NCBI GenBank assembly: GCA_019096065.1 | Contig: JAGUCH010000003.1 | Coordinates: forward strand, 5,828,001 to 5,892,000 | Source of the DNA: Paracyclopina nana | Lineage: Eukaryota > Arthropoda > Copepoda > Cyclopoida > Cyclopettidae | Length of the DNA stretch: 64,000 nt | Reading direction: 5' to 3' | The notes under the pieces: model-generated | What the model was told of the DNA's origin: nothing | The model's input: the letters and a program-made list of their open reading frames with translations, nothing else | Databases searched by the model: none | Made by a program: the position numbers and the translations under genes | In this document: positions 15,187-63,721 of the stretch, one piece after another | Numbering within the stretch: position 1 is the first letter of the stretch | How the letters are laid out: each line of letters begins with the position of its first letter

Positions 15187-15197
15187 ATTTCCCCCTA
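15187..15197 (-). other. Polypurine tract
   Basis: Read on the minus strand this is AGGGGGAAATT, directly next to the LTR, the standard priming site for plus-strand DNA synthesis. The stop codon of the last env-like frame (15195-15197) overlaps it. Confidence 0.8.
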
Positions 15198-22323: not shown

Positions 22324-22397
22324 GAATTGTTGATGGCTGGCGATGTGGTTGAGAGCTGCTAATATGGAGGAAGGTGAGGGGACCCGGCTGGAGCTCT

Positions 22398-24960: not shown

Positions 24961-25160
24961 TGTAGGGGTTCGAACACTCTGAGACCTACGCGTTACACCT
25001 TACTAACTTATAGCTTATAAGACTCCATCTTAGTTGGAAGGATATATGTCGTCGAGCTGTTTGCTCGCGCATAGTCGTTTATTTACTGCTGTACAATTGT
25101 AGTGCTACCGCACGAGAAGGAGGCGAGAGCGCAGGTACGCAGGCTCGGGATCCTGCTACA
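24961..25160 (-). repeat. 5' LTR of the minus-strand element
   Basis: 200 bp, identical by eye to 14987-15186; TGTA...TACA ends; followed by the target duplication CATC. It should carry the element promoter. Confidence 0.95.
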
Positions 25161-50633: not shown

Positions 50634-50665
<32 letters not shown>

Positions 50666-53600
50666 GTTGCTTCCTGAGGCCCTACCAATCTGCTATCATC
50701 TTCATTATTTGCTTGAGGAGGCGACTCTGGTGATGGTGGAGGCTGGGATACAGAAGCCTCAGATGGTTCATCAATTTGATTTTGATATGGAGTCACTTCA
50801 GGGGGCTCAGTGTACATCAAGTCAGATGCAGCCCCCATTTCATTCAAGCGCTGCATTTCACGCTCCTCCTCAATTTTCATTTCTTCCTGCAATTTTCTAA
50901 TAAATCTATTGTAAACTGGCAGCGTTACCATGGCCATTGTTTGCACAGAGCTTTTGAAGCTTTTTCTCTTCATGTTTCTTTACAATGTTCTCTAAATGAG
51001 GCAAGCAAGTTTTCAGGACAGCAGCTAGCTCTTTTTCTCTCTTTAAAAGTCGGCTTCTTTTGCTTTTCAAAGGTTGATTTTTGTTCATCAGAAAATCAAA
51101 GTCCTTTTTATTCTCCAAGTAGCACTTTTTTAATTTTGCCTTTTTTCCCACAGGCATTGGCAATTTTGAATAGTTTATGTTAAACACTGCCTCACACAAC
51201 TTATCAACAGCATCTTCATTGACTCTCAAAAGGATCTCTTTCCTGTCCTCAGGCTTTGCATTACAAACCGCCTTCATGAAGGCTAATGGACAATCTTTCC
51301 TCATCTTTTAGTCACCTAGTTTTTTTTATGCATCCAACTTTTCTTAGGCGCTAGATGACAAAGGGATAAAAACGAGCATGGGAGCTTCCTCATCAAAAAT
51401 TCTGCTTCTGAGCCGCACCGTGTCACTTTGCCAGTTAGTGAAGTCAATCAGTAGATAACTGTATGGAGCTCGTGTGGCTTTTTGAAATGCTTCTACAAAA
51501 AAGCTAGAGCTGTATGCCCCAATCTGAGATCCCAAAGTTGCAATTTGCCTCGTGTCCCGGACATTCTTAAACAACACCAAATATTGAGTATTCAGGGAAA
51601 TTGTTCGCATCGAGCGAGATTTATAAAACAGGGATTGAGTGACCAATATAACAGACACTTTTTGGTGGTGCACAGTTTGGGCAAATAAAAGCTCCAAAGA
51701 GTTGCCATCTAGAGCTGTGAGAGAGTCATCCAACAAAAATATGCTGCCTCTTGCATCAGCCTCGCGTAAATTCCTGGCCATCTCTTTCAGTTCCATTTGG
51801 TCTGGAATGCCTCTCACAGCTTTTGTCAAGATTCCTTTGCGTAACATAACGTCATACAAAGGCTGCTGTTCTTGATAAAACAGCACTATTTGATTGGGGG
51901 CATCTTTGATTAGCTTGTCTTTGTGCTCAAGGAATCTTTTACAAAATGTAGTCTTCCCAGTTTGCGAACTCCCCACCACCAACATTGAAAAGGGGTGATG
52001 CAGTGTTAAATCAAACATTTTTTTTTTTGGTCAATTTCTTTCTTCTTATCTTGATTGGTTTATTTTTTAAGGCAGGTGAGCTGTGACCTTTCTTGCAGAG
52101 TCAATAGTAAAGCTAGCTTCATACACAGCATATACAAACATGACCAGAGAAGCTTCTAAGGATTGGCTGAAACTCACTGTAATGTCTAGAGATCCCTGCA
52201 GAGGTTTTGCAGGCAAGGATGAGTTGTATCCAACCACATCTAAACAGTAGAAATTGCATGAGGATTTGTAGGCATCATAGGGAATTGAAACTTTGCTGTC
52301 TTCAAGTCCCAAAGTTCGTAGAAAATGTAGATACCAATGGAGATATTTGTTGTTAGCATAATCTAAGGGCTGACTTACTGGGTGAATGATTTCGCCACTT
52401 CGTCTGAAATACAAGTCCTTAATGTGATTGCTGCTGAATATGTACGGGTTGTTGGAGGTTCCTGATAGATTGGATGCTTTTGTGAAAGCCACGAGCAATA
52501 ATCTGGGTAGCTCTCCAACAACTACAGATTGGAAAGTCATTGTAGACACAGCAGATGGCACTGTGATGTTGGAAATTTTAGCCATTGGAAAGTCATAGAC
52601 AGCCGAACTTTTCAACAATCTTTGATGGTGTTTATCAATCAACCTAGACTCCAAAGTCACATACTTTACAGCCAATTTCAGCCTGGTTAGCCTAATCTGT
52701 AAATTGTAAGCTGTGTCTGTCCATTCCGATATGATGGAAAAATCATCAGAATTTCGATGTAGGGTAAAACGAAGAGAGACCCCATTCAAAAGCAGCTTTG
52801 GTGTACGCAAACAGTCCAAGTGAAGTGGACATTCAAAATCAACCTCCTTTGAAGTGGAGATCAATTTAGCTCTATTGTTATAGCCCCAGTTACCATCCGC
52901 TACTTTGTTGCCATCTTCTTTCCCCACTGTATCTGTGCTCCAGCAAGAGGAGACCTTCAGAATACCCTCCTTCATTTCTTTAGAATAGCTGAGGAGAGCC
53001 TCAATGTAGGCCTTTTGCATGTATGAAAAACTGCCATTGTCAGTCACTGGAACGCCATTCATCTCCAATGTTATAAGGCGCCATAATGAAGATGGGCAAT
53101 AATTCACAATGCTCACATCATCGACAGCTCCTAGATTTTCCTCAGTGTTATCCTTTGTTTTAATTTTAATCACTTTAAAGCTTCCAATTAATCTTGTCTC
53201 TGACAGATGAATATAGTCATTGTTGGGTGGTATCTTAAACTCTTGAACAGTTGATCCCTGCAAAGGAGCCAAGGTGTCATAGTACACAGTTCGGCCGTTG
53301 ATTACACCATCCAAGCTTTGATGGGGCTCAAAAATGTCTAGAGGTGACAGGTTGCCTACCTCCAGTGACATAGCTTATAAAAGCGGTCCCTTGGGACTAC
53401 CTTGAGATTTAGTTCGATGGAAAGTGTCACGGAGGCAGTCAGACTTCAATCCACTTTACCACTCGTTGAACTTAAAAATATCAAACTCAGCGTAAAAATA
53501 CGTCCAACTCTGCTGAAAACTATTGAAGGGCGGTGCACTCAAAAAGGGGTTCGATTTGAGAATTTTCACAACTTTTTACAATGCTACTGTCAAGGTTCCC

Positions 53601-56600
53601 TGCGTATTAGTTTCTTTAGGTTGGGCAAATCATCAAAGCAGCATTGTAATATTACTGGCTGCAAAACCAAGCCTGATGTTGAGCTTGCATTGACCTTGAT
53701 ACAAGCTCTCAGTAACTCTTGCATTTTCAGAGTCATTGTAGACAACATTACAGCAGTGTCAAGCCTAGAAAAGGCATATTCAATTTCTCACCTGCTCCCA
53801 GCATTGCGTGAGTTTCAAACAAGGCTAAACGCCGAATTATTTGCTGGTTTGTACATCAAAGTTCCATCACCCCAAGGAGAAGTCTTGGCAATTTATTACG
53901 AAAGTGGAAAAGTGGTGATTTTAAAAAGCACCAGCATCCAAGCTTGCCAATGGACGATCAAACTTTTGAATGCGAGTGCATCTACCTAGAGGACTCCCTT
54001 GGTGAATTTGCTTTTTGCAGAAACTGCCTCACCTCCTCAAGCCGTTGGGCCAACCAAAATGAGGAAGACTTGCTTGATCTACTCGAAAGGCTGCATCTGC
54101 CCTCAGCCTGCATCGATAGATTTTGCCAGCTGAAACACAGTGCCGCCACAAAAATGCCAACTGGACCCCATCATGAAGCTCTCCTCAATGCAATTTGCTT
54201 ATATGAACTGTGCAAAATTGAGAGGGTGCCCAGAACAATCAAAGAAATTGCAAATGTCAGTGGGTTTAGTAAAAGGCAATTAGCCAAAGCACTAAAGCAA
54301 CTTTTCCCAGGGTCAGAACCTATTCACCCTAGTTATTTGGCCAGTAGATTTGGGGCAAACTGTGGCTTGAATCGCAAAGAGTGCTTGCAAGTTGAAAATC
54401 GTATTTTAGCATTACACCCTAATGGATACTCTTCGCATTGTCCCTCTACTTGGGTAGCAGCCTTTATTCTAGTCATAGCTCAAGAATGCTCCTTAGAAAT
54501 CAACATGAAAAATGTATGTGACAACTGTGGTGTCAGCGAGGATACAGTGAAAAAGTTTCTGGAAAAACATGAAATATTTTTGGACTTTGAGCTATTTAAA
54601 GGGAGGAGCACCAGGCAAATATGCAGGAGAAGAAGGAGAGAAGGAGGAGCAGCAGCAGCAGCAGCAGCAGCAAATGCCAGGACCCTCAAAAGAAAAGAAA
54701 AAAAGAAATCTAGCTGATACGCTGAGCGAAGACACGAAGCTAAGAAAAGGGCCTAAACGAAAAAGAAGCAGCATTATCAGCGAAACCCCCATTCTTGAGC
54801 TTCAAAATGCCTAGGCTTAAAAAAGAAATACAACTTCTGAGGGCTAAATATACTATACCGGGGCATCCACTGGCCTTTGCTGGGATTGACAAAATCTTCA
54901 GTTATTTCAATGGCAAACTATCCAGGGAGGAAATTGAAGATTATTTGAAAGCAGTTGATGTTTTTACTGTGCACAGACAACCACGAGCCAGTAAGAACTT
55001 CAACCCAACATATAACTACCACAAACGTGAGCATCTCCAGGCCGATTTATGCTCCTTCTGGAATCAAGAAAAATTCAACCACGGTTTCCGATACCAATTG
55101 GTCATAGTTGATGTTTTCACCAGATTTGCTTGGGTTTGCCCACTAAAAACAAAAACTGCCAAAGAAACTTTGGCAGCATTCACAAAAGTTTTTGACAAAG
55201 AAATACTGGAAGCCAAGATACTGACTGTGGATAGCGGAACTGAGTTTCTGAATGCCTCTTTTCGAGCTTGGTTGGAATCAAAGTCAATTCAGCTGCGCAT
55301 CCCGAGAGCCCTTGGGAAAGCTGGCTATGCTGAAGCATTCATTAAAACTCTTAAGTCCCTCATTTCCCGATACTGCACTGAGTATGGAACCAAGTCATTT
55401 GTTGGAGCACTCCCCCAGCTTGTCAAAAGCTACAATCACAGATTCCATCGAGGTATTCAAACCACCCCAGCAAAGGCAGAACGTGATCCCAATGTTCAGT
55501 TGAAAATCAGAGAGCTCAATTTACTTAGATACGGCTCCATCAAGAAGAAAAAGCCCACTTTTTGGGTCGACCAGGTTGTACGTATCAGTAAAGATTTGGG
55601 CAAATTTGCTCGTTCATTCAATGCCCGCTTCACTAATGAACTTTTTATTATCAAAAAAGTAATCGATCATATGCCAATTCCTCTCTATATCATCACAGAC
55701 CTCAAAGGAAATGTTATTGAGGGGAAGTTTAGAAGCTCGGAGCTTACAGCCATGAAACTTTCGCTGCAGATCCACATTGATAAAATCCTAAGCAAAGAGG
55801 GTGACTTTTGGACAGTTACTTTCCAAGGAGGGCCCAAGAACTTCAAGGTAAAACTACACGTTCGCAACTTTTGTAAGTGATTGGACAAGCAAAATAATAC
55901 AAGCAATAAAGTTAAGAATAATAATTCAAAAAACCTGGCAATGATCTTACACTTGTTGTCGCAGCCTGGTTCCCCTCATATAGTGAGCGTAAATGTGCCA
56001 TTGTGGGGTCAACAAAAGTTGGAGTGCGCAGTTCTATCAGCCAGCTTCTCACAGCGATTTATAAATTCTTCTGTTCCTTTTGACGAAGACCTACCCAGCA
56101 TTGCCATCCTAGACTCTGGCCTTTCCTTGCCACAAAACACTCCATTTGGAGTTTTTCTGCCTCACGCAACAATGACCGTTTTTCAACTCACCTTTTTGTT
56201 TTCAAACAGCCACACAAACCCCACCAAGCTTAAAATGACTTATGATCCGAAAACTGATGCCATTCACCTTTTGTATCCCAAAAATAGCGGAAGCACGCCG
56301 GAATACCCCATACTTTGGATTCATGATGGCCTATTTCGATTTCTTTGGAAAGATAAGCAACCATCTCAGTTACCATCCTATGAATCAACAATTGGAGTGA
56401 AAAAAGAAAGATACCACCTTTTGGATATCTCTCAGTGGGGAACAAAATCTCCAACCCATGTCTCTATAACAAGCTCAAGCAACCTGTCGGATTATTTACC
56501 CAGCAACTATCAACCTATTATCTACTTGAGTTGCGATGAATTGATGAGCCCCCCTTTTGTTGGCAAACCCATTATTGGCTCATTTGGCGTAGCCTCACCT

Positions 56601-59600
56601 CAAAAGACTGGATACATTGAAAGTCGTTGCAAGAATCCTCTCTTTTACCCCCTTGCTAGAAACCATTTGACCAATCTTACAATTCGACTGTTGGATGCTA
56701 ACAGTAACCCCATCAAGCTATTGCCTGATCATAACAGCCAAACAGTTGTGCAAGTTCATCTTCGTCCAATAATGGAAGAGAAGCGGGAATCAAAGTTTGC
56801 TGTGTTTGTTGACTCAAAAGGCCAAAAGAAAAATTGCATTGCTCTGGCCTTTGATTCTCGTCTCAGTGAAGGCAATTGGAGTGTTGCGCTATCTAGCTGC
56901 ATGTTCAGCCCTCGATTTACAAACTGCCTCTGCAAAGATGAGCGTGAGATTAAAGTTTCTAAAACTCAGCATGACAGACCACCAGAAATTTTCTCAATCA
57001 TATTGCCATCTGGAGTTTTAAGATTAGAAGAAATCACAAATGCATTTATGCTTCAAAGTAACTACAGAATGAAAGCCGAGCTTGAATCAACTCATGGTTG
57101 TCTAACTATCACAAACTCTAAAGGAACCTCACTCAAGTTGTCTATGCATAAAAAATTAGCCTCTTATTTGGGGGCTAGGGTCAATGATGACAGCGATGAA
57201 ATTATTCATCTGGAGTCCAAAGGAGGAAACATTGTATTTCCAAAGCCCATCAACTTACCAACTCCTCACAACATAGCTATACTCTGCGATGCCATCCCCC
57301 CTCAGTATGTTGGAAACTTTTCATCTCCCATTCTTGGCATCATCCCTCTCCCAACTTCTAGCTTGGGTGGCTATTTTACCTACGAACCGCCAACCCTAAA
57401 CTTTTTACCTTTACTTACATCTAATGTGAGAAATATCAATTTTGAAGCCAGAGATCTTAATGGTGAGCTGATTCCTTTTGATGAAGAAGATCCCAATGAA
57501 TCAGTTGTGCTAAGCCTCATCTTCAAAAGAACACATTGAAAATTGTAGTTTCATTGAGTTACTCAGTGGTTGCATTTTTTCTTAGCCTTAAATGAAATCA
57601 ATAAAAAACAAACCTCTAGTTATTATGCTTTTCCAGCCAACTCTGCAGCATCAGCTCTTGCTCATTTTTAGACAAACCCAAACACCTCCGGCATTCTCCT
57701 CCAAATATTTCAATCTCAGGTGAGCCTAAAGGGCAGCTATGGTTTGCGCATGAAAACCAATGTCTCTTCATGTCCGTTACAGTCAAGCTTTTTTTGTTCA
57801 TTTCCACAGTGGACAAGGCAAAGTTTTTCATGCGTATTGTATGAAAAGATGAGTAACGATGCTTTTTCCCCCTATACACTGCCATGTAATCGTCAAAAGT
57901 AAACTGTCGATCAACGGCTCTTCTTGGAACTCCCTTGCATCGCTTGTGTACTTCAATTTGATCGGGTGATCCAACTGTACCGATCTTCAATGCATAGGAT
58001 TTTGGTCTCAAAGCCAGGCACTCAAGTATCTCCTGAGGTCCATTGACCTCAAGTTTCCACAGGTGTGGGAAATTTTTTCTTCCTGCATGGTACATGGGGT
58101 CATCTTCCGGAAAATTAGAAGTATCCAGCAAATGGTCCAATTTTTTTAGGTCTTCCCTCAAATTGTTCGTTTGGCAATGAAGTATCAACGAGTCTGTGTC
58201 TGTATAAGCAACTGACAAGCCCCTGGTCCAAATAGGAGTAAATTCGTGATACAAATCCCAATAGAGCTTATCTTTTGCCAGCTCTAGTATGGCAAATGCA
58301 ACATAAATTGCTTTATTTAGGTAAACTCTCTCGGGTTGCAGGTAAATGAAGGCTAAATCTCTGCCCAGAGTTTTCATCCCCTTGAAATTTGGCTGTAGCA
58401 TCAGTTTTTGTGCATGAGATTCACTAGTGGTTGGTCTCAGCTCTATATAGTTTCTAATCTGCTCATTTGTTTTTCCATAAATCGAATTTGGAACAAGTTT
58501 CAGCATATTGCTCTCAAATTTAGTTGCTGCTTTTGACCTGCGACCTAAAAAGTCCATCATAAAATCCTGAGCAAATGGGCGCTGATCAAATTCCAAGATA
58601 GCATGAATTTTTATCAATTTCATTCCCAGGGCAAGTGAGGTTTTAAGAGTTGCTGCATGGACCAAATAATTTTTTCTTGGATAAAATGTGGCAGTTAAAA
58701 GTTTTTGTTTAAACTTTTCTTTACCCTCATAGGTCTTCATCAAATCCCTAGTAAATTGAGAAACCATATCTTGGTCAACAGTAATTGTCTCAGGACACAG
58801 TGGAAAATCACTTGTTCTAAGGCATGCCTCTTTGGAATAATGCAAATCAACTAAAAGGAAATAGCCCTTCCCTTCCCGCATGGGGTCCACATCATAGAGA
58901 TTAAATTGACTGATTTCCTCTTTTGACATCCACCTGAATCCTCCCATCGGAAGAGATAAGCAAAAACATGAACAGTACAGGCTATTACAATCCAAGTAAA
59001 GCACACAGGAGTCTGTTGATTTTTCTACATGATGAATCATGGCAGTGCAGAGTCCACCTCTAATTTGTGACTCAAAAAGCTTGTATGTACCCAAGTCGGT
59101 CAATAATTCCAACTCCACTCCAGCTAGCTTTAAAAATCCATCCCATGCTAAAGCTGGAAGTCCTACATAGCGAGTACTTTCTAGGCCCAAAGTGGACATC
59201 ATCTGAGCTCTGTATACTTGCATAACTTCAGCTAACAACAAAGTGTCCAAATGCATGTACACAATCATGTAGTCCAACATGCTTTTACAGCCCAAAAGCT
59301 CATACAGCTCTCGTCCTTTTTCATGTTCCTCCGTTGTTGCAGTAAAGTCTCCAGTAAGGTCGCTGTAAAAGTATTTTCGGTCAGGAAATGTCTTCCATGA
59401 TTCAAGTGATTCCAAACTTGTCACCAGTTGGTACGGAAAAGGGGCTTTGATTAGCAGCCTTTCTAGACGATTTAAGTCAAAATTACCATCACGACCTTTG
59501 CAGATGTCAGACTGACAAAGAAGCGGATAAGAATGATTGCTAACTTCCAATGTTTTTGACAAGTTGGCCAAGCTAGCATTGAGATGGTGGACGCTGTCAA

Positions 59601-62600
59601 TGCAAATAAAACTATTGAATTGTAAGGAACGAAGCTTTTCCATGTTTCTTGGTAAAGCCTGGATTCGACTGACTGAACAATTTTGAATGCCCTTCAGAAT
59701 GAAAGCCACATCATAAAGAAACAAGTTGTGCATTACAACCACAATTTTTTGGGCAGAGTCTCTGACTAGAATATTGCACCTGTGGTGGCTAGGTCCAATG
59801 AAGGCCCCAGTCAAATGGTCATGATGAACAACAATACGTTGATAGCCTTCTGGCAGTTGGTGCTGAGCACCTTGCCTCACATCATACTTGGGTGAAAACT
59901 TTTCATGGCATAAACAGCATTCATTGTTCTCATTGTAAGCTCTCCATTCTGCATATCCCATCTGCACCGGTTTCACTTTTGACATTTTTTCCAACAGCAG
60001 AGGCTCCAAGTCTAGCAAGGCTTTTACAAACTTTTCACCAGCTTTCCCCTTGTCACATGTCTCCCAAGCCTCATGAATGAGATGATTCTCATGATCAATG
60101 ACAACAAATGAATAAGAAATTGCTTCATGGATATGTGTTTCAAGAGTGTAAGGTGACTCTGAATACGTTGTGCATTTGCACTTTGCTCCTATTGCTGCAT
60201 TGTCTTCCACACAAGTTGGGCAGGGCTCCTGTGCAGGAAGCAAAGCTGACTCAAAATCTCCATAAATGACAAAGGGGGACTGGATTTGACGTTCAATGTT
60301 CTTAAACTTCAAAGTCGGAGGAGTACCATCCATATTTCTTTCTGGCATTACTTCCTCTGGGCAAAAAGTTGGGAAAGTCCCATCAATTCTATGCGAATAA
60401 ACATTACAAGCCCGTTGATGACTATCCAATTTTGTGATAGATACAAACAATTTCAAGCATCTCTCACATAATTTTCGCCTCGTATTTCTAGATTCACCTA
60501 GCTTTGATGAGCCTCTATAGGGTGCTAAAAATTTGTCTAGGTTCAAAATCAACAAATATCGCCACTGAGTCACCCCCCCAGCGTAGGGTATCCTCAGTAT
60601 AGGCACTATGTGAGTAGGTCTACTCTCAGCTGGAGCCTGAAGAGCTGTCACCAAAGTTGTCACAGCATTGTTATTTTCCAGCTGGAACAAATGGATACCA
60701 AAATCAAACCTTGGGCCGTTGGTGTGGACAAATGTCTCAACAAATTTGAGCTCATCTTCCTCAAATGAAGGTGAAAAAATGTCTGGTGAAATGTCCAAAA
60801 AACAAGCAATGGCATGGCAAAGAGTTTCTCTCTCTCCAACATCAAAATATTTTAAATGTTTCACTCTTGGTATCCTCATTGTAACTGCTAAAAAAACCTA
60901 TCCATTAAAATAAATTTAGGTCAAAGAAAGTCTTCGTTGAACAAGAAACTAGGTCAGAAAGATAAAAACATAAAGAAAAAATTGACCTATTTTTGCCAGT
61001 AATTTATTTGTATGAAAGAAAAATAGGTCAAAGAAAAAAAAAGGCTCATTGCTCAAAAAAGATAATGAGAATCTAGGTCGGCATAATTAGAAAGACCTGA
61101 TAGGGCATTGAGTGAGGAACCAAACATGGCTTCTGGAAACAACTATTTTGAGCTTCTTCGAAATATTTATGAAGTAGAATCCTTCAAAATTCTGGTTCTC
61201 ATGGAACACTTCTTTGAACCAAGGCAAAAACAATCAAGGCTCACCCTTCGATTATTAGCAAACTATCTCATGTTTTTGGCTCAGCAATTATGCTATGCCA
61301 TAGACTCTTTTGGACAATGTTATCCCTCTGATAACTTTTGTGAAACAAAGTTTGTGAGTGACACTCGAAAATTCTCATTCATCCTTCGAGAAACCTTTAA
61401 GACTGGCTTTGAAAGCCAGGATGAATTTGATGGTAAAGGTCTAGAAATCCAAACAAAAATCAAGTGGATGCTGCTTCATAAGAAGAAAAGGTTGAAAGAA
61501 CAAAACTTGGCAGTAGACTTTTGGTTACCAAAGCAATTCAACCCAACTTTGAGAGGATTTATTCCAGTCATAGATGTTTGTGGTGGATGCAAGTGGACCA
61601 AAAGAATCTTACTCTCCAATCAATTGAACCAATACACAGTTTTCCCTCAGCCACCTCATCAAGGAATTGAAGAACACCTTGTAACAATTGCTTTTCAAGC
61701 TCAAAAAGCACTACACCATATGAAATCTCTCCTCCCCGCCCAAGGATATTCACCAAGTTTAAGGTCAACTGGATGCTATCTCATTCTCTGCTTGCAGCAC
61801 TTTGAATGCCTGCTAATGCATCACGATCGTTGGAATGCGTTGGATTATGTGCAATCTACCACTCATCAAGCCATAATTGCATTGGAAACAATGAAATTTC
61901 AAACAGAGCTAGGTAACTTGCTACGAATGGAGTGCCTGATTCAATCATTGAAACCTTTCTTAATGTTTGCACCTAAACTCCAACCAATTTTCTTGGACTA
62001 CATTTGCCCAGCGCGAAATCCTGCAGAAATTCCCTTATTTCATGTACTGATTAAATACAAGTAAAAATAAAAAAATAAGTCAAGTTTGTTTCTACATCAT
62101 TGGACTGGATTTTTTTATTTCAATTTAAGAGAAATAGGCTCTCACAGCCCCAATAATATCTCTCCTACAAAGTGGGCATTTCAACAAGGAGGTTCCGCAG
62201 CCTATACAGGTCATTGCATGGCGGCAAGGCAAGAATACAACAGTTATTTCATTAGTGAAACAGACTTTACATGCAAGGGACATGGCCACCTCTTTAGGTT
62301 CAGTTTTCTCATAATTAGTAATGTTTTTGGCCCTTGGAACAACTGGTGCATTCACTTTTGCAGCTTGAAGTTTTATAAAATCTTCCCCTTTCACCAGAAG
62401 AATGAATGGACATGATTGAAACCATTTTGCATGCTGTTCAAAAGGACAATCCGCTGGCAACCATTTGTGAAGTGCTCCATGACAGCTGAAGCAAAATACA
62501 ATGTCACCTCTTCCAGAATAAAAAAATCCAGCTTCTGCTAATTCATGTGGACGTTGAGTTATGCTCAAAGGCCAGTCACGATAAGACGCAATTCTTCTTT

Positions 62601-63721
62601 GCAAAGTTGCAAACTTTTCATTTATAGGGAAAGTATAAAGCACAATTCCATTGAAATTGCTCATGGTTTTATTTTTACCTAACCACTTTTCTGGGAGACA
62701 GTCAAAGGGAAACTGGTGCTTCACACACCTCTTTTGTGCAGAAAAAGCCCACCCTCTCTCAGCACTATTTATGAGTTATTATCTACAATGAATGATTGAA
62801 AGCACCTCATTCACTTGCACCATAGAAGACTTTCTGCATACATTGAAAAAAGCAGAAAAAAGGAGTCACCTTGCCAAGAAGCACCTTGAGTTGTATCAAG
62901 GTGTAATTATGACACCTTGAGTGAGCTATTAAATCACCTTTTTTCATGCACCTTGGATGAATCAGGCACTTGACCTAATTAGGCCTTCATTTAGGCTAGC
63001 CAGTGCGGCACCAGTTGACACTTATGACATTTGGTGTAAACGATTTTTGGGGTTGGAACATGAGTGGTGTAAATTACATACAACAGGGAGTTAATATGAT
63101 CCTCCTTTTACTAGGCTCGATGGTATAAGAAATAAGTGCGGACGTAAAGCCAATCATAGGTGCCCACAGTGCCCATTCAAGACTAAATTTCGGAGTTCAA
63201 TCAAAATTCATTGCCAGAGAGCTCATGTAAAGAAATTGCCGAAACTTAGCAGATCTGCCATGATGCCACAGAAATCGTTGGTGTGCGACTTGTGTGACTT
63301 TTCAACAGATCACCAAATTGCATTAAAAAGGCATCTGACCGTGGAGCATGTGTTAAAGAAAAGGTGTGGCTTTTGTGACTTTTCGAGCAATAGCAAAATT
63401 GCATTGATAAATCACATTGGTTTCATGCATGATTGTGAGGCCATCAAGTGCTGCAACAAGATATTTAAAAATCGTATATGCTATGCCAGTCATTGTTCGC
63501 GCACGCACAAGACCTCGAGGCGCTCAATCTTTGAGGAAACTAGCGTTGGCAACATGGAGCCATCTGGAGATATTGCCCCACCTCTCTCACCAACTTGCAC
63601 CATTGTCGTATCTGAGCAAAATGTGGATCCCACGACCAATTCATCGGCAAAACTCTCCGAAAAAAATGTTCCCTTGAGGGAAATCATTTTGGAGGAAGGC
63701 TCCGGCTCAATCTGCTCGTAG
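38152..63721 (+). CDS. C2H2 zinc-finger protein with a Polinton in its intron
   Basis: Exon 1 38152..38249 and exon 2 63115..63721, 234 aa. Exon 1 starts ATGGAGCCC and ends with a good donor (AAC/GTAAGT) in phase 2; exon 2 begins after TTTTACTAG in the matching phase. Three Cys2-His2 fingers (CPQCPFKTKF..H..H, CDLCDFSTDH..H..H, CGFCDFSSNS..H..H) and a fourth degenerate CC..H..H unit are followed by a Ser/Pro/Thr-rich acidic tail. This suggests a nuclear DNA-binding protein. The intron of 24865 bp consists mainly of the Polinton and short repeats; without the Polinton it is about 2.1 kb. Joining these two exons is an inference from phase, strand and lack of other partners. Confidence 0.55.
38330..39440. 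repeat. Interspersed short repeats in direct and inverted orientation
   Basis: A word of about 25 bp resembling CGGATCGTCCTGGTACTACTAGAACG recurs at least eight times: forward at about 38345-38490 and 39340-39430, inverted at about 39150-39290. Between them lie many AAGCAAGACTTGCCAAGCAA-type words (38826-39080). No coding sequence. Confidence 0.55.
39500..40115. repeat. Short-word repeats before the Polinton
   Basis: Words like AAGTCTTGCTTGG recur at 39505-39580 and in series at about 40045-40112 (AAGTCTTGCTTGGGAAGTTTTGCTTGGGAAGTT). They are inverted relative to the AAGCAAGACTT words at 38826-39080. No gene. Confidence 0.45.
40335..40620 (+). repeat. Left terminal inverted repeat of Polinton
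   Basis: About 285 bp matching the inverted right end. It contains the perfect palindrome CAAGGTGTCAT-A-ATGACACCTTG (40510-40532), several AAGGTG words and a TAGGTCAAG word (40452-40460) that recurs near the PolB gene. The two repeats are roughly 85-90% similar by eye, lower than usual for a fresh insertion. Confidence 0.9.
40795..41350. repeat. ~220-bp subterminal tandem repeat
   Basis: Two and a half copies starting at about 40795, 41016 and 41241. Each carries TTTTTAGGGCCAATTGCATTTT, AATGGAGCAATTTCAAGGACAA, TCCTTCATTCTGTAGTGTGAATATTG and CAGTTTCAAATT words. There is none at the right end, so it is an asymmetric subterminal array. Confidence 0.75.
41351..42333. other. Polinton left arm, non-coding
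   Basis: About 1 kb without a supportable gene; an 81-codon frame at 41385-41630 looks random. It should contain the 3' end of the first minus-strand gene. Confidence 0.5.
42334..42897 (-). CDS. Secreted NPC1 N-terminal-domain-like protein
   Basis: 187 aa from the first ATG; the frame is open eight codons further to an AG, so an upstream exon is possible. Residues 1-14 (MLLLDVRLAICVVNG) with the open codons upstream look like a signal peptide. The mature part is rich in cysteines. Two blocks resemble the N-terminal sterol-binding domain of Niemann-Pick C1: NCYEPGPAKTLSPEE (NPC1 has NCEYSGPPKPLPKD) and CPYNFRKNFCHMTCS (NPC1 has CFYNLLNLFCELTCS), in the same order and similar spacing around ALCGRVETC. 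It lacks the transmembrane part of NPC1, so a soluble sterol-binding or decoy-type role is conceivable, but this is inference. It lies at the left end of the Polinton. Confidence 0.55.
   Translation of the reverse strand: MLLLDVRLAICVVNGRQFPPLMTTKSNPEKNVNPDIDATLFVHQTCSSTAGRDPDYPEQANKYLNCYEPGPAKTLSPEEPLSSRRSKKRPAPLATSFTASETMSLAKALCGRVETCINICTSMKNAAKIIKTVGPSAGKKILKEIQLYYLVGTHHTCPYNFRKNFCHMTCSLNPLEPVWSFWSGQNC
43051..43785 (-). CDS. Gln-rich Polinton protein with hydrophobic segment
   Basis: Exons 43785..43674 and 43475..43051 joined across a GT-AG intron with a strong TTTTTTTGCAG acceptor, 178 aa. The N terminus is acidic/polar (MAGAENYVQIDEENQQQD), then SIFDNIYSGLVLVYGLYDFY could be one short membrane helix, then a long Gln/Arg-rich low-complexity stretch and an acidic C terminus. 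No known family. The intron removes the frame conflict seen between the two exons; splicing in phase supports the model. Confidence 0.5.
44003..44326 (-). CDS. Possible small Polinton ORF
   Basis: 107 codons from ATG ATG; basic, no recognised domain. It is divergent from the TATA promoter at 44440. Could equally be a leader exon of the minus-strand genes. Weak support. Confidence 0.2.
   Translation of the reverse strand: MMNIRLTRIFFPWNIVLKKTSFFSLFKHLMDAADAQTNVREKKSCPISFLRIHRRVVELRKKDGFCSGKGNLSAKNCLPFKLPKIKISIQQVVFKVVRTHYFTNYYN
44440..44448 (+). promoter_or_regulatory. TATA box of the plus-strand accessory array
   Basis: TATATATAT within TAGGGGTATATATATCC, followed about 30 bp later by CTTCACTTCACAGTC, a plausible initiator. 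A strong donor GTAAGT occurs at 44542, so a short leader exon of about 44470-44541 is likely. Confidence 0.6.
44601..45568 (+). CDS. Unknown Polinton protein (284 aa)
   Basis: Exons 44601..44637 and 44751..45568 with a 113-bp intron ending in an 11-base pyrimidine run plus AG. A Ser/Ala/Thr-rich N terminus of about 90 residues is followed by a folded domain from VDFVGPNFFEVLVGSKAHLR to LYVTLVAKRLAEKK, with alternating hydrophobic strands (VYVEFLEPQQDISVTFNV, FKLWLMRREGT) suggesting a beta-rich fold. Not recognised. It is the first gene downstream of the TATA box in the array. Confidence 0.6.
45755..46816 (+). CDS. Unknown Polinton protein, possible PC4-like domain
   Basis: Exons 45755..46535 and 46797..46816; 266 aa. 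The N terminus is disordered: Asn-rich, then a GC-rich Ala/Gly/Pro stretch (codons at about 45830-45960, base composition quite unlike the neighbours). The C-terminal 110 residues are folded; the last part (THLFLARDLGPKKQEYAILG, then KNTGFSIQVMNEEIPLLIEA) resembles the strand-strand-helix end of the PC4/Sub1 single-stranded-DNA-binding transcription cofactor, a weak match by eye. A splice acceptor (TTTTGTTTTGCAG) ends at 45722, 32 nt before the ATG. The intron contains AATAAA at 46626, so an unspliced shorter 3' end is possible. Confidence 0.5.
46969..47664 (+). CDS. Zinc-finger protein of the Polinton
   Basis: 231 aa. Three fingers in the first 95 residues: CPRCKLFKGQNF..H..C, CPHCTSTFTRQATLRSHLQQH (classical C2H2) and CHNCQSPFKSSTALYVHEQKC (C2HC). 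The C-terminal 130 residues form a helical domain (FRNIERTFQLLL-like, LFAPHFNAIFALIF) with no recognised relative. An acceptor TTTTTCTTAG ends at 46965, three nt before the ATG. Confidence 0.65.
   Translation: MPKWHLCPRCKLFKGQNFASLREHLESCPNRPQRGEISASAYACPHCTSTFTRQATLRSHLQQHLPRKHYYCHNCQSPFKSSTALYVHEQKCRPSFEVNYQWRPVKNRFKNIERTFQLLLPSVAFTDLKGDRRFAEAIRSLFAPHFNAIFALIFTAHMSREDISLQFPVRLARRRITPASNLSDITEACLDEAQTRIEGLTSLEGSAWLFLGLVNVVLESYLSPGQQLPDA
47941..48628 (+). CDS. Helical Polinton protein with poly-Ser tail
   Basis: Exons 47941..48038 and 48118..48628, 202 aa. Helical throughout (KEEAVRSAQELKTSFAKAHS, LYNLWHELILVTRETKRLRQ), then a run of eleven serines and an acidic, Thr/Ser-rich C terminus. It is preceded by an acceptor CATTCCAG (ends 47906) and a purine-rich GA-repeat 5' UTR. 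No family recognised. It may belong with the next two genes, which are also all-helical and of similar size. Confidence 0.55.
48822..49343 (+). CDS. Helical Polinton protein (173 aa)
   Basis: One exon. All-helical, with IFGPSLEEIHAILARLDRVI, LCQLKFAHWLLLESIQLFSP, LFHELKDIVGEAYHSLTEMQ and a Cys-rich KKCCCNAANHC. An acceptor TTTCTTTGCAG ends at 48742, 79 nt upstream. Stop at 49343 lies 22 nt before the ATG of the next gene. No family recognised. Confidence 0.55.
   Translation: MPFIEIFGPSLEEIHAILARLDRVISNVLDGAETIRRPEPWRDTFWLKIESCQYGLSSLCQLKFAHWLLLESIQLFSPILQEMPNAYIPFQHRFSAIHLFHELKDIVGEAYHSLTEMQGLLDPFKREEIKKCCCNAANHCQNFKIKSANWARFIDSSLSNPFVVQRYYEDILD
49366..50112 (+). CDS. Helical Polinton protein with acidic tail (212 aa)
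   Basis: Exons 49366..49524 and 49633..50112. The acceptor CCCCCTCTTACAG abuts the ATG, and only 22 nt separate it from the previous stop, the same architecture as the host PRPF4-LRR-BAG2 gaps. The protein is helical (EVIEEFFSVVGYHLVEGKWH, LGAIQHAVRRFLEAYDPNAI) with a C-terminal acidic run (DEDDDDEA). No family recognised. Confidence 0.55.
50287..50937 (-). CDS. Polinton protein with C-terminal C2H2 finger
   Basis: 216 aa from MAMVTLPVY (a Met 12 codons upstream is possible). An N-terminal helix (VYNRFIRKLQEEMKIEEERE) resembles the short helical opening of a conserved Polinton gene found beside the small basic protein. A Pro/Glu/Ala-rich linker with a poly-Ala run follows, then one finger CNLCGTEFTRATSLKRHLRNIH and a C-terminal WYDARAFSNDKSSKLKRR. 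It overlaps the end of the upstream gene by about 30 nt in another frame, as in compact virus genomes. Confidence 0.6.
50906..51304 (-). CDS. Small basic Polinton protein
   Basis: 132 aa, Lys-rich. The layout (DRKEILLRVNEDAVDKLCEA, then LKKCYLENKKDFDFLMN, then LLKREKELAAVLKTCLPHLE) recalls the conserved small basic protein of animal Polintons/adintoviruses that ends in a GGFL..LL..VLP-like segment, thought to be a core or adenovirus pVII/pX-like factor. The match is by pattern and only moderate. It lies between the ATPase and the finger protein on the same strand. Confidence 0.55.
   Translation of the reverse strand: MRKDCPLAFMKAVCNAKPEDRKEILLRVNEDAVDKLCEAVFNINYSKLPMPVGKKAKLKKCYLENKKDFDFLMNKNQPLKSKRSRLLKREKELAAVLKTCLPHLENIVKKHEEKKLQKLCANNGHGNAASLQ
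51344..52018 (-). CDS. DNA-packaging ATPase (FtsK/HerA, A32-like)
   Basis: 224 aa. Walker A GSSQTGKTTF at residues 16-25 and Walker B IFLLDD at 93-98, followed by the sensor-like VSVILVTQSLFYKS. This is the packaging ATPase of Polintons and related viruses, which pumps DNA into capsids. A GGTCAA word lies in the 20 nt upstream. It sits directly downstream of the capsid gene on the same strand (48-nt gap). Confidence 0.85.
   Translation of the reverse strand: MFDLTLHHPFSMLVVGSSQTGKTTFCKRFLEHKDKLIKDAPNQIVLFYQEQQPLYDVMLRKGILTKAVRGIPDQMELKEMARNLREADARGSIFLLDDSLTALDGNSLELLFAQTVHHQKVSVILVTQSLFYKSRSMRTISLNTQYLVLFKNVRDTRQIATLGSQIGAYSSSFFVEAFQKATRAPYSYLLIDFTNWQSDTVRLRSRIFDEEAPMLVFIPLSSSA
52067..53371 (-). 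CDS. Major capsid protein (double jelly-roll, hexon-like), probable
   Basis: 434 aa. It has the pattern of the Polinton/adintovirus hexon family, often annotated in animal genomes as F54H12.2-like: an early YYDTLAPLQGSTVQEFKIPP block; ETRLIGSFKVIKI; SLWRLITLEMNGVPVTDN followed by YMQKAYIEALLSYSKEMKEG; a later LRTPKLLLNGVSLRFTLHR; then VVVGELPRLLLVAFTKASN and NPYIFSSNHIKDLYFRRSGE. Position next to the ATPase fits. The start at 53371 lies 45 bp from the divergent TBP-like gene with a TATA sequence in between. Confidence 0.75.
   Translation of the reverse strand: MSLEVGNLSPLDIFEPHQSLDGVINGRTVYYDTLAPLQGSTVQEFKIPPNNDYIHLSETRLIGSFKVIKIKTKDNTEENLGAVDDVSIVNYCPSSLWRLITLEMNGVPVTDNGSFSYMQKAYIEALLSYSKEMKEGILKVSSCWSTDTVGKEDGNKVADGNWGYNNRAKLISTSKEVDFECPLHLDCLRTPKLLLNGVSLRFTLHRNSDDFSIISEWTDTAYNLQIRLTRLKLAVKYVTLESRLIDKHHQRLLKSSAVYDFPMAKISNITVPSAVSTMTFQSVVVGELPRLLLVAFTKASNLSGTSNNPYIFSSNHIKDLYFRRSGEIIHPVSQPLDYANNKYLHWYLHFLRTLGLEDSKVSIPYDAYKSSCNFYCLDVVGYNSSLPAKPLQGSLDITVSFSQSLEASLVMFVYAVYEASFTIDSARKVTAHLP
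53372..53416. promoter_or_regulatory. Bidirectional TATA promoter between capsid and TBP-like genes
   Basis: Only 45 bp separate two divergent ATGs. It contains GCTTATAAAAGC (53373-53384), which reads TATAAAAG on plus and TTTATAAG on minus, and an inverted repeat GTCCC-TT-GGGAC (53386-53397) beside it. The arrangement suggests an autoregulated promoter for the capsid and TBP/TFIIB genes. Confidence 0.5.
53417..53989 (+). CDS. TATA-binding-protein-like factor of the Polinton
   Basis: 190 aa, the size of a TBP core. The two-fold repeat of TBP is visible. Repeat 1: LVELKNIKLSVKIRPTLLKT, then GSLRISFFRLGKSSKQHCNI and TGCKTKPDVELALTLIQAL. Repeat 2: FRVIVDNITAVSSL, then FQTRLNAELFAGLYIKV, YYESGKVVILKSTS and ACQWTIKLL. 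ELFAGLYIKV and SGKVVILKSTS correspond to the strongly conserved ELFPGLIYRM and SGKVVLTGAK of eukaryotic TBP. Phenylalanines that kink DNA are only partly conserved (RISFFRLGK). It overlaps the TFIIB-like start by 40 nt. Recognised by pattern; a structure prediction would settle it. Confidence 0.7.
   Translation: MESVTEAVRLQSTLPLVELKNIKLSVKIRPTLLKTIEGRCTQKGVRFENFHNFLQCYCQGSLRISFFRLGKSSKQHCNITGCKTKPDVELALTLIQALSNSCIFRVIVDNITAVSSLEKAYSISHLLPALREFQTRLNAELFAGLYIKVPSPQGEVLAIYYESGKVVILKSTSIQACQWTIKLLNASAST
53950..54717 (+). CDS. TFIIB-like transcription initiation factor of the Polinton
   Basis: 255 aa. Zn-ribbon-like N terminus: CEC at 8-10 and CRNC at 23-26. Cyclin repeat 1: ALLNAICLYELCKIERVPRT, IKEIANVSGFSKRQLAKALK (TFIIB has ..CLYIACRQEGVPRTFKEIC..VS..SKKEIGRCFK). 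Repeat 2: CPSTWVAAFILVIAQECSLE, NMKNVCDNCGVSEDTVKKFL (TFIIB has SP..VAAAAIYMASQ, ..EIGDIAGVADVTIR). A poly-Ala and Lys/Arg-rich tail ends it. The ATG lies inside the TBP-like gene, so the two are translationally or transcriptionally coupled. Together they form a minimal promoter-recognition pair for RNA polymerase II. Confidence 0.72.
   Translation: MDDQTFECECIYLEDSLGEFAFCRNCLTSSSRWANQNEEDLLDLLERLHLPSACIDRFCQLKHSAATKMPTGPHHEALLNAICLYELCKIERVPRTIKEIANVSGFSKRQLAKALKQLFPGSEPIHPSYLASRFGANCGLNRKECLQVENRILALHPNGYSSHCPSTWVAAFILVIAQECSLEINMKNVCDNCGVSEDTVKKFLEKHEIFLDFELFKGRSTRQICRRRRREGGAAAAAAAANARTLKRKEKKKSS
54807..55880 (+). CDS. Retrovirus-like integrase of the Polinton
   Basis: 357 aa. Catalytic triad D80 (LQADLCSF), D142 (LTVDSGTEF) and E176 (KAGYAEAFIKTLK) in an rve-type core. 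A C-terminal chromo/SH3-like part follows (VDQVVRISKDLGKFARSFNA, FIIKKVI). This is the enzyme that makes the 6-bp target duplication. It starts 89 nt after the TFIIB-like stop and lies on the same strand as the penton gene. Confidence 0.9.
   Translation: MPRLKKEIQLLRAKYTIPGHPLAFAGIDKIFSYFNGKLSREEIEDYLKAVDVFTVHRQPRASKNFNPTYNYHKREHLQADLCSFWNQEKFNHGFRYQLVIVDVFTRFAWVCPLKTKTAKETLAAFTKVFDKEILEAKILTVDSGTEFLNASFRAWLESKSIQLRIPRALGKAGYAEAFIKTLKSLISRYCTEYGTKSFVGALPQLVKSYNHRFHRGIQTTPAKAERDPNVQLKIRELNLLRYGSIKKKKPTFWVDQVVRISKDLGKFARSFNARFTNELFIIKKVIDHMPIPLYIITDLKGNVIEGKFRSSELTAMKLSLQIHIDKILSKEGDFWTVTFQGGPKNFKVKLHVRNFCK
55941..57539 (+). CDS. Penton-like minor capsid protein with duplicated module
   Basis: 532 aa. 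Its C terminus (LTSNVRNINFEARDLNGELI, VVLSLIFKRTH) has the form of Polinton/adintovirus penton proteins, which end in an interface strand of the type 'IxIxLxDxxGxxIxF...VxLxFR'. An equivalent block occurs in the middle (RNHLTNLTIRLLDANSNPIK, VVQVHLRPI at about residues 250-276), so the protein seems to contain two copies of a jelly-roll-like module of about 265 residues. An AATAAA follows at about 57600. The start at 55941 is the first ATG; the frame is open upstream to the integrase stop. Confidence 0.65.
   Translation: MILHLLSQPGSPHIVSVNVPLWGQQKLECAVLSASFSQRFINSSVPFDEDLPSIAILDSGLSLPQNTPFGVFLPHATMTVFQLTFLFSNSHTNPTKLKMTYDPKTDAIHLLYPKNSGSTPEYPILWIHDGLFRFLWKDKQPSQLPSYESTIGVKKERYHLLDISQWGTKSPTHVSITSSSNLSDYLPSNYQPIIYLSCDELMSPPFVGKPIIGSFGVASPQKTGYIESRCKNPLFYPLARNHLTNLTIRLLDANSNPIKLLPDHNSQTVVQVHLRPIMEEKRESKFAVFVDSKGQKKNCIALAFDSRLSEGNWSVALSSCMFSPRFTNCLCKDEREIKVSKTQHDRPPEIFSIILPSGVLRLEEITNAFMLQSNYRMKAELESTHGCLTITNSKGTSLKLSMHKKLASYLGARVNDDSDEIIHLESKGGNIVFPKPINLPTPHNIAILCDAIPPQYVGNFSSPILGIIPLPTSSLGGYFTYEPPTLNFLPLLTSNVRNINFEARDLNGELIPFDEEDPNESVVLSLIFKRTH
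57616..60879 (-). CDS. Protein-primed family B DNA polymerase
   Basis: 1087 aa. A CERCLKLFVSITKLDSHQRAC finger near residue 138 and an HNH-like HHDHLTGAFIGPSHHRCN block typical of Polinton PolB; exonuclease motifs DFES (in YGDFESALLP) and HNLFLYD; polymerase motifs A (D630, DCNSLY), B (KLVPNSIYGKT, N798-S799) and C (DTDS, D894/D896). The DCNSLYC in motif A departs from the usual DxxSLYP by C for P. It replicates the linear element by protein priming. It is divergent from the 61126 gene. Confidence 0.93.
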   Translation of the reverse strand: MRIPRVKHLKYFDVGERETLCHAIACFLDISPDIFSPSFEEDELKFVETFVHTNGPRFDFGIHLFQLENNNAVTTLVTALQAPAESRPTHIVPILRIPYAGGVTQWRYLLILNLDKFLAPYRGSSKLGESRNTRRKLCERCLKLFVSITKLDSHQRACNVYSHRIDGTFPTFCPEEVMPERNMDGTPPTLKFKNIERQIQSPFVIYGDFESALLPAQEPCPTCVEDNAAIGAKCKCTTYSESPYTLETHIHEAISYSFVVIDHENHLIHEAWETCDKGKAGEKFVKALLDLEPLLLEKMSKVKPVQMGYAEWRAYNENNECCLCHEKFSPKYDVRQGAQHQLPEGYQRIVVHHDHLTGAFIGPSHHRCNILVRDSAQKIVVVMHNLFLYDVAFILKGIQNCSVSRIQALPRNMEKLRSLQFNSFICIDSVHHLNASLANLSKTLEVSNHSYPLLCQSDICKGRDGNFDLNRLERLLIKAPFPYQLVTSLESLESWKTFPDRKYFYSDLTGDFTATTEEHEKGRELYELLGCKSMLDYMIVYMHLDTLLLAEVMQVYRAQMMSTLGLESTRYVGLPALAWDGFLKLAGVELELLTDLGTYKLFESQIRGGLCTAMIHHVEKSTDSCVLYLDCNSLYCSCFCLSLPMGGFRWMSKEEISQFNLYDVDPMREGKGYFLLVDLHYSKEACLRTSDFPLCPETITVDQDMVSQFTRDLMKTYEGKEKFKQKLLTATFYPRKNYLVHAATLKTSLALGMKLIKIHAILEFDQRPFAQDFMMDFLGRRSKAATKFESNMLKLVPNSIYGKTNEQIRNYIELRPTTSESHAQKLMLQPNFKGMKTLGRDLAFIYLQPERVYLNKAIYVAFAILELAKDKLYWDLYHEFTPIWTRGLSVAYTDTDSLILHCQTNNLREDLKKLDHLLDTSNFPEDDPMYHAGRKNFPHLWKLEVNGPQEILECLALRPKSYALKIGTVGSPDQIEVHKRCKGVPRRAVDRQFTFDDYMAVYRGKKHRYSSFHTIRMKNFALSTVEMNKKSLTVTDMKRHWFSCANHSCPLGSPEIEIFGGECRRCLGLSKNEQELMLQSWLEKHNN
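60880..61125. promoter_or_regulatory. Divergent promoter with TAGGTCA repeats
   Basis: 246 bp between divergent starts of PolB and the next gene. TAGGTCAAAG at 60917 and 61024, TAGGTCAG at 60950, TTGACCTA at 60982, TAGGTCGG at 61074 and AAGACCTGA at 61092: six copies of one hexamer core in about 180 bp, in both orientations. The same word lies in both terminal repeats. Confidence 0.55.
61126..62064 (+). CDS. Unknown Polinton protein (312 aa)
   Basis: Helical (LRLLANYLMFLAQQLCYAID, RSTGCYLILCLQHFECLLMH), one central segment VIDVCGGCKW with a CxxC. No family recognised and no His/Asp/Cys pattern of an adenain protease seen. It could be distantly related to the helical accessory proteins at 48-50 kb, which I cannot establish by eye. 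Confidence 0.55.
   Translation: MASGNNYFELLRNIYEVESFKILVLMEHFFEPRQKQSRLTLRLLANYLMFLAQQLCYAIDSFGQCYPSDNFCETKFVSDTRKFSFILRETFKTGFESQDEFDGKGLEIQTKIKWMLLHKKKRLKEQNLAVDFWLPKQFNPTLRGFIPVIDVCGGCKWTKRILLSNQLNQYTVFPQPPHQGIEEHLVTIAFQAQKALHHMKSLLPAQGYSPSLRSTGCYLILCLQHFECLLMHHDRWNALDYVQSTTHQAIIALETMKFQTELGNLLRMECLIQSLKPFLMFAPKLQPIFLDYICPARNPAEIPLFHVLIKYK
62125..62664 (-). CDS. Inhibitor-of-apoptosis protein (BIR-RING)
   Basis: 179 aa. BIR domain at residues 22-88 with zinc ligands C58, C61, H78 and C85 (FCFSCHGALHKWLPADCPFE, H, C). C-terminal RING at 130-170 with C132, C135, C147, H149, C153, C156, C163, C166 (CKVCFTNEI, CRHAMTCIGC, CPLCRRD). One BIR plus RING is the layout of baculovirus-type IAPs and of ubiquitin-ligase IAPs that block caspases. 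It lies at the right end next to the terminal repeat. A start 20 codons further upstream is possible. Probably captured from a host and used to keep infected cells alive. Confidence 0.9.
   Translation of the reverse strand: MSNFNGIVLYTFPINEKFATLQRRIASYRDWPLSITQRPHELAEAGFFYSGRGDIVFCFSCHGALHKWLPADCPFEQHAKWFQSCPFILLVKGEDFIKLQAAKVNAPVVPRAKNITNYEKTEPKEVAMSLACKVCFTNEITVVFLPCRHAMTCIGCGTSLLKCPLCRRDIIGAVRAYFS
62810..63085 (-). repeat. Right terminal inverted repeat of Polinton
   Basis: 276 bp, inverted copy of 40335-40620. It keeps the palindrome CAAGGTGTAAT-T-ATGACACCTTG (62898-62920) and the TTGACCTAA word (62970-62978). Confidence 0.9.

Follow-up and report, generated by a model that had tools for sequence, protein, structure and literature searches.

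Does a small integrating element in an animal genome encode the core of its own transcription pre-initiation complex? Two overlapping genes in a 64,000-nt stretch of the Paracyclopina nana genome (contig JAGUCH010000003.1; hereafter the window) raise this question, as a preliminary description had read them as genes for TBP and TFIIB inside a Polinton.

The element and its genes

The placement inside a Polinton was borne out by terminal repeats, a 6-bp target duplication, a family B DNA polymerase and an rve integrase, all present in an element of 22.8 kb. The TBP and TFIIB genes are placed between the capsid gene and the integrase gene, and the features are as follows.

40329..40334, no strand: target-site duplication GGGAGT, left copy, 6 bp
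40335..40637, plus strand: left terminal inverted repeat, 303 nt, 83% identity to the right repeat over 307 columns
51344..52018, minus strand: putative packaging ATPase (AAA_22 E 2.6e-5, Pox_A32 E 0.0044; both under the cut-off)
52067..53371, minus strand: putative major capsid protein, 434 aa, divergent from the TBP gene; assigned by position
53376..53382, plus strand: TATA box TATAAAA, 41 nt 5′ of the TBP start codon
53417..53989, plus strand: TBP homologue, 190 aa, two-fold saddle (Pfam, profile, predicted structure)
53950..54717, plus strand: TFIIB-family protein, 255 aa, with ribbon-like cysteines, short linker, two cyclin repeats and basic tail
54807..55880, plus strand: rve (retroviral-type) integrase (PF00665 E 3.7e-11)
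55941..57539, plus strand: conserved 532-aa protein, possibly penton or minor capsid protein; persists in a capsid-less derivative
57616..60879, minus strand: family B DNA polymerase (DNA_pol_B_2, PF03175, E 1.3e-21)
62125..62664, minus strand: IAP-like protein (BIR and RING)
62791..63085, minus strand: right terminal inverted repeat, pairing with the left repeat
63086..63091, no strand: target-site duplication GGGAGT, right copy, 6 bp

The 434-aa ORF is presumably the capsid protein, a name given for its resemblance to such proteins and for its position, and a similar resemblance makes the 532-aa protein a possible penton or minor capsid protein. Neither sequence had a Pfam or PDB match, and neither of their profiles matched the PDB. 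An adenovirus-type maturation protease gave no Pfam match among 19 scanned element ORFs, a search that a divergent protease would escape. Terminal repeats, a 6-bp duplication, PolB, an rve integrase and a putative ATPase and capsid are likewise features of Polinton/Maverick elements as described in the available text of PMC8097293, which lists PW and PZ as uncharacterised proteins of vertebrate Mavericks; in contrast to the TBP and TFIIB of the window element, the terms 'TATA' and 'TFIIB' do not occur in its main text. Within the accessible portions of the openly licensed literature no animal Polinton is described with a TBP-TFIIB pair, which agrees with the earlier statement that none was known.

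Identity of the two proteins

The TBP gene runs from an ATG at 53417 to a stop at 53989, exactly as first described. Its 190-aa product matched PF00352 (TBP) with an E value of 6.3e-6, exceeding the curated cut-off, and the NCBIfam TBP model over residues 16–182, i.e., both halves, with an E value of 1.2e-5 and 24.8 bits against a model cut-off of 181. A PDB search with this single sequence found no TBP. A profile built from 7 relatives matched 35 TBP sequences (best E 2.2e-15), 34 of them in two stretches, and five of the seven relatives reached the Pfam TBP family individually. Structure prediction had been proposed as the check, and the model of the 190-aa protein contained the saddle; in an earlier model from a 3-sequence alignment (pLDDT 64.7), the best 38 fold matches were all TBP-containing chains. 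TBP identity and the two-fold repeat are thus upheld by Pfam, the seven-relative profile and the predicted saddle. Viral proteins contributed 46 fold matches of the TBP model at E ≤ 0.001. The named ones were mostly proteins of large DNA viruses, which have 6–15% identity to the element TBP and several of which are called TBP.

TBP possesses four DNA-intercalating phenylalanines. Three of these positions are aromatic in all seven aligned Polinton TBPs and the fourth in none of them, at a point where the alignment is possibly off by one. One TFIIB-contact glutamate is retained. Two further TFIIB-contact positions are changed: at one, N or Q replaces the host E in 7/7, and at the other the host L persists in 2/7.

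The second gene, from an ATG at 53950 to a stop at 54717 (255 aa), and its 40-nt overlap with the first (53950–53989) also lie exactly where they had been placed. Its product matched PF00382 with an E value of 4.8e-10 and, taken alone, human TFIIB over residues 104–287 (E 8.9e-11); a 6-member profile covered residues 97–287 of human TFIIB, i.e., both cyclin repeats, with an E value of 6e-25, and three of the six members reached Pfam TFIIB individually. These matches establish, at the level of sequence, the proposed TFIIB identity with two cyclin repeats. Of the suggested Zn-ribbon-like cysteines, a ribbon-like C-x-C-x12-C-x2-C is present by eye, but PF08271 (TFIIB zinc ribbon), found in 2/6 members, did not match the window protein. 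The subfamily D counterpart reads, again by eye, C-x-H-x13-C-x2-C, and MAFFT aligns only two cysteines in register. The gap between ribbon and cyclin core, judged by eye, is about 10–15 residues in subfamilies A and B and in the window protein (after CRNC), and the linker is longer in subfamilies C, D, and F. The window protein does not show the B-reader/B-linker expected of a full TFIIB and was therefore classed as a member of the TFIIB family in which the linker is shortened. As the A/B linker is too short for a B-reader, initiation with these proteins cannot be wholly canonical.

Conservation and origin of the gene pair

Matches to the window capsid protein defined 14 loci in the genome, and the pair was present at all of them, broken copies included; as the loci were picked by this match, the count is valid for this clade only. 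In 4 of the 14 loci, one or both genes are broken. The genes are adjacent in six Polinton subfamilies of this one genome, which supports well the view that they form a single functional unit, although subfamily F lacks the overlap, its first TFIIB ATG lying 10 nt past the TBP stop. The dN/dS values range from 0.06 to 0.22; subfamily A versus B is saturated, and the two members of the close C pair L013/L015 (TBP dN 0.002, dS 0; TFIIB dN 0, dS 0.016) are too similar to give a ratio. Chance ORFs or one freak insertion are ruled out by homology, by structure and by the occurrence at 14 loci. The two neighbouring genes encode homologues of TBP, here also by fold prediction, and of TFIIB, and they have been kept by selection.

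The search for the pair in other Polintons, suggested at the outset, thus succeeded in six subfamilies but failed in a second Polinton lineage of the same genome, whose capsid the window protein did not match. The integrase of this lineage occurs at 7 places, with zero TBP or TFIIB matches within 30 kb. One of these places, C4:2796001-2822000, reached an E value of 5.4e-16 with the capsid profile and at best 0.087 with the TBP and 0.48 with the TFIIB profile; genes there are spread across several reading frames, through either decay or introns, and a decayed pair could therefore escape. The second lineage rules out universality of the pair, which is dispensable for a Polinton as such and serves as a marker that separates two Polinton lineages within one genome. 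Three further integrase-bearing loci (one read over 20 kb) had no capsid, TBP or TFIIB match.

The contig also carries a canonical TBP gene, at a distance of about 0.77 Mb from the element, and another gene encodes a TBP-like factor. TBP-like factors are known only from metazoans, and from both genes together we infer an animal host. Related TBP-like proteins were found in metagenomes: 51 in total (P0001, P0002, and 49 more), on contigs of up to 35.8 kb, with the fold family and signature residues in common with the element TBP; the contigs of P0015, P0022, P0036, P0041, and P0042 measure 18–36 kb. For the TBP tree, each subfamily supplied one Polinton locus and subfamily C two (7 of the 14), and 50 of the 51 metagenomic proteins were included, with the 119-aa P0051 left out. 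The tree was midpoint-rooted for drawing only, and the program warned that long branches meet (F with A/B; C with D/E) and that sequence composition is uneven. Judged by the sequences in this tree, the element TBP is not a recently captured host TBP.

Scans of IMG/VR and phage records for the context of the metagenomic proteins gave zero matches, and no relatives were found in IMG/VR by TBP, TFIIB, capsid or integrase profiles or by P0001/P0002; one of the profile scans covered at least 400 stretches. The TFIIB profile found none among 7998 protein-database candidates, a negative that says little, given that human TFIIB reaches 91 bits with this profile. The sole match in a prokaryote genome, L067, looks like an ordinary archaeal TBP and not a relative.

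A possible role in transcription and its alternatives

Possession of its own TBP and TFIIB suggests that the element steers the host transcription machinery onto its genes. The scanned element ORFs yielded no RNA polymerase gene, and host RNA polymerase II is therefore the enzyme that we propose; this Polinton clade probably encodes a private pre-initiation complex core, a TBP plus a TFIIB-family protein, serving it. The TBP-TFIIB genes would first be activated by host TBP through an ordinary TATA box. The element TBP would then bind element promoters, the element TFIIB would dock on it, and the pair would recruit polymerase II to the element genes, with the capsid and replication set probably transcribed later. 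Expression might thereby be possible where host factors would fail, in a programme separated from that of the host.

That the pair recognises the element's own promoters, as first proposed, is the best reading of the sequence. A TATA-like match precedes only the TBP gene among 19 element ORFs (ATG-started, at least 120 aa, 150 nt upstream), with about 1.1 expected by chance across the 19 regions. The MCP-TBP divergent regions of subfamilies B and C show no TATAAAA, and there is thus no sign that the box is conserved. Among the 100-nt stretches upstream of 17 ORFs, no shared 6-mer or 8-mer (one mismatch) beat random element pieces (best 8-mer p 2.3e-5 vs. a null 5% point of 5.6e-6). For the proposed early-to-late switch, the lone TATA box at the TBP gene is a weak hint.

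Alternatively, the element could be virophage-like, the pair recruiting not host polymerase II but the RNA polymerase that a large DNA virus brings along in a co-infection. Many large DNA viruses carry their own polymerase, and the named viral fold matches, mostly such viruses' proteins and several called TBP, would fit. So would the precedent of virophages, which, according to the available text of PMC11464507, have regulatory elements in common with giant viruses, in whose factories they are active. However, the element copies reside in nuclear DNA, and an identity of 3549 bp between two copies on different contigs fits ordinary recent mobility, which makes a helper virus unlikely. We consider it just as improbable that the pair is a decoy competing for polymerase II, TFIIA or TAFs and so disturbing host transcription. 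The B-reader-less TFIIB of subfamilies A and B, to judge from its short linker, could hold the polymerase without productive initiation, but a decoy needs neither both partners nor DNA-intercalating aromatics together with a retained TFIIB-contact glutamate, and no capsid locus of the clade (0/14) lacks the pair. A use as DNA-bending proteins in replication, packaging or integration-site choice appears more remote still: the genes sit between capsid and integrase, and a fold alone proves no function, yet it is difficult to see why a cyclin-repeat TFIIB should be retained beside TBP other than for transcription, and the three integrase loci without the pair counter a need in integration. Least credible is an ordinary capture of host TBP/TFIIB genes or relics without a role, which the broken copies would fit but which is largely refuted by the dN/dS values and the distance from host TBP in the tree, which covers TBPs, besides the conservation in six subfamilies.

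For many eukaryotic DNA viruses, Polintons are under discussion as ancestors or relatives. To our knowledge, viral TBP/TFIIB pairs have otherwise been described only for large viruses with their own polymerase. Examples, from the accessible parts of the sources, are poxvirus VITF-3 and VETF-l/Rap94, a TBP/TFIIB-like pair (PMC12917281), and the TBP and TFIIB encoded by megavirus (PMC11464507). Large DNA viruses resemble the element in encoding such a pair but differ in their own multi-subunit RNA polymerase and far larger genomes, whereas no polymerase was found in the 22.8 kb of the element. The presence of such a pair in an integrating element of 23 kb, without a detected polymerase, would imply that privatisation can begin with promoter choice. 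We tentatively extend the host-polymerase reading, with slightly more doubt than confidence, to an ancient and widespread family of small DNA viruses and Polintons that live in the nucleus, in which a private pair makes host polymerase II element-specific and reads promoters that the host ignores; it would be a minimal form of the large-virus pre-initiation complex and possibly the source of theirs. Whether viral TBP/TFIIB is older than viral polymerases, and how an endogenous element escapes host transcription control, become testable questions, and the two proteins might be developed into a tool for orthogonal polymerase II promoters.

The late promoters served by herpesvirus vTBPs are of the TATT type, and in this the element differs, with TATTWAA in 0/17 of the 100-nt regions upstream of its ORFs. 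We also know of no TFIIB encoded by herpesviruses. The likeness lies in a viral TBP mimic working with host polymerase II in the nucleus, as we propose for the element; such late-gene vTBPs of beta- and gammaherpesviruses include KSHV ORF24 and EBV BcRF1 (PMC13345323, available text), and the fold matches of the element TBP include a BcRF1 homologue (E 3.5e-4).

The element and its TFIIB-family protein

The element, carried on a contig of 11.6 Mb (genome assembly: 92 Mb in 10 contigs), is a Polinton, as established by its terminal repeats, the length of the flanking duplication, the polymerase and the integrase. The inverted terminal repeats are 303 nt long (83% identity across 307 columns), a perfect 6-bp duplication, GGGAGT, flanks both ends, and the ORFs include a family B DNA polymerase and an rve integrase. 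A P-loop ATPase is probable (matches below cut-offs). A 434-aa protein, for which searches of Pfam and PDB gave no match, is taken by us, from its resemblance, to be the major capsid protein. Further products are a 532-aa protein, zinc-finger proteins and an IAP-like BIR-RING protein, the last a possible block on cell death.

Features of the element and its flanks (window positions)
14984-25160, retroelement with reverse transcriptase and integrase, flanked by two 203-bp direct repeats
40335-63085, Polinton element, 22,751 bp
40878-41252, direct repeat pair, 151 nt, 87%, just within the left terminal repeat
46969-47664 (+) and 50287-50973 (-), two C2H2-type zinc-finger proteins, below Pfam cut-offs
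52067-53371 (-), 434-aa putative major capsid protein
53417-53989 (+), TBP gene
53950-54717 (+), TFIIB gene
55941-57539 (+), 532-aa protein
62125-62664 (-), IAP-like BIR-RING gene adjoining the right terminal repeat, with a BIR match at E 1.1e-20

Genes in the flanks, one of them for a tuberin-domain protein, point to an animal as host, as do the host's canonical TBP gene and its TBP-like factor. The retroelement is probably a recent LTR insertion, since its direct repeats are 100% identical.

Queried alone, the ORF at 53950-54717 matched human TFIIB with E 8.9e-11, and a profile of six family members did so with E 6e-25, spanning both cyclin repeats, which bears out the two predicted repeats of the preliminary description. 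Pfam TFIIB was reached by three of the six members, each queried singly. As to the Zn-ribbon-like cysteines proposed earlier, the N terminus reads, by eye, C-x-C-x12-C-x2-C (C-x-H-x13-C-x2-C in the subfamily D counterpart); the Pfam ribbon was reached in two of six members, the window's protein not among them, and the four cysteines were not all in register in a MAFFT alignment. In the window's protein and in subfamily B the core begins almost directly after the ribbon, so that B-reader and B-linker would not fit; in a host TFIIB piece the ribbon is followed by a long stretch. Because of the ribbon results and this missing room, we class the predicted 255-aa product as a TFIIB-family protein.

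Distribution of the pair in the genome

Genome searches, whose counts are lower bounds, gave at least 11 matches to the window's TBP, at least 10 to its TFIIB (one being host TFIIB), at least 14 to the capsid protein and at least 31 to the integrase. Pfam TBP gave at least 15, five of them within two host genes; the canonical host TBP gene lies on the same contig, ~0.77 Mb from the element, and the second host gene of this kind is a TBP-like factor. The preliminary description had proposed a search of other Polintons for the pair: at all 14 capsid loci, TBP adjoins the capsid gene and TFIIB adjoins TBP. These loci fall into six subfamilies of our own naming (A, the window's element, 1; B, 3; C, 3; D, 2; E, 3; F, 2), the TFIIBs of the E copies and of one F copy being detected using D and F proteins as queries. 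The overlap of the two genes recurs in A to E, judged from first ATGs, but in F they lie 10 nt apart.

At 10 of the 14 loci the reading frames of both genes are intact; at the other four, all E copies and one of F, at least one is broken. Identity to the window's TBP falls to about 25%. For both genes dN/dS is 0.17-0.22 between diverged C copies, and for TBP 0.06 between D and E, where dS is near saturation; two close C copies are too similar for the ratio, and A versus B is saturated. Of the B copies, two that lie on different contigs agree at every position of 3549 bp, and the third has 99.86% identity; therefore the clade has moved recently, or else the assembly contains a duplicate. Decayed F-type pieces were found as well, of TBP on contigs C9 (C9:908521) and C3 (C3:9002223) and of TFIIB, together with an integrase, at locus L066.

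In the genome searches, none of the capsid, TBP and TFIIB queries hit three loci that carry an integrase at each end, in opposite orientation.

Double-integrase, palindrome-like Polinton derivatives (contig:positions)
C7:4631835/4648250
C9:2262687/2279113
C3:1719000/1735967 (pieces L064 and L065)

One such locus, read over 20 kb in two pieces, holds genes for integrase, polymerase, the 532-aa protein, zinc-finger proteins and a pair of IAPs, but capsid, ATPase, TBP and TFIIB were all without match there. As these four genes adjoin one another, a single deletion may explain their joint loss; the derivatives are perhaps satellites of subfamily B. The two IAP genes of a capsid-less relative lie at 919-1509 and 1736-2272 of L064, and a capsid-less derivative also has relatives of the element's C2H2-type proteins. 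Another Polinton lineage, distant from the first and divergent in polymerase, capsid and integrase, occupies C4:2796001-2822000 (pieces L068-L070 and L055) and six more places; polymerase matches lie near its seven integrases, the one copy examined closely has a capsid match, and neither TBP nor TFIIB was found at the seven places. The pair is thus a mark of one lineage, and not every Polinton needs it.

Relatives and possible function

Using a profile of the window's TBP and its relatives, a database search retrieved two metagenomic TBP-like proteins, and 49 more once these were added, mostly of 165-190 aa on contigs of up to 35.8 kb; no relatives were found in IMG/VR and phage records. In a tree of 59 Polinton, metagenomic and host sequences, whose midpoint root serves display only and in which long branches meet, the TBPs of the Polintons fall into a single group (99/92). 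About 3 changes per column separate these and the metagenomic proteins from the host's TBP and TBP-like factor.

Among the literature matches listed for Polintons with TFIIB, TBP or TATA and for virophages with both, no Polinton is described with the pair, in agreement with the earlier claim. TATA and TFIIB are absent from the main text of PMC8097293, PMC11071308 and PMC11071296, PMC8363768 contains neither TATA nor "transcription factor", and PMC12220804 has no TFIIB or TBP, TATA there being an author's name. Poxviruses (PMC12917281) and megaviruses (PMC11464507) are described as having such pairs alongside their own polymerase, whereas a scan of 20 ORFs of the window's element detected no gene for an RNA polymerase. 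To the extent of these sources, an arrangement already known from both virus groups therefore takes a new form here, as a private TBP-TFIIB pair in a clade of Polintons.

Because the scanned ORFs gave no polymerase gene and the element resides in nuclear DNA, host Pol II would be the natural partner with which the pair works. Of the residues by which cellular TBP intercalates into DNA, the Polinton TBPs keep three of four, and they keep one TFIIB-touching glutamate, which argues, at the level of sequence, for binding of TBP and TFIIB to DNA and to each other. Neither the remaining intercalating residue nor two further TFIIB contacts are conserved. A canonical TATA box lies 41 nt upstream of the TBP start codon and none within 150 nt upstream of the other 18 ATG-started element ORFs (>= 120 aa), one match being the number expected by chance. 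None was seen for the TBP gene in the subfamily B and C regions, nor was a common motif found in the other upstream regions of the element. The position of the box is compatible with a cascade: host TBP would switch on the TBP-TFIIB genes, and the pair would then switch on the remaining genes of the element. The short linker of the predicted TFIIB suggests that Pol II could be recruited without the canonical B-reader step.
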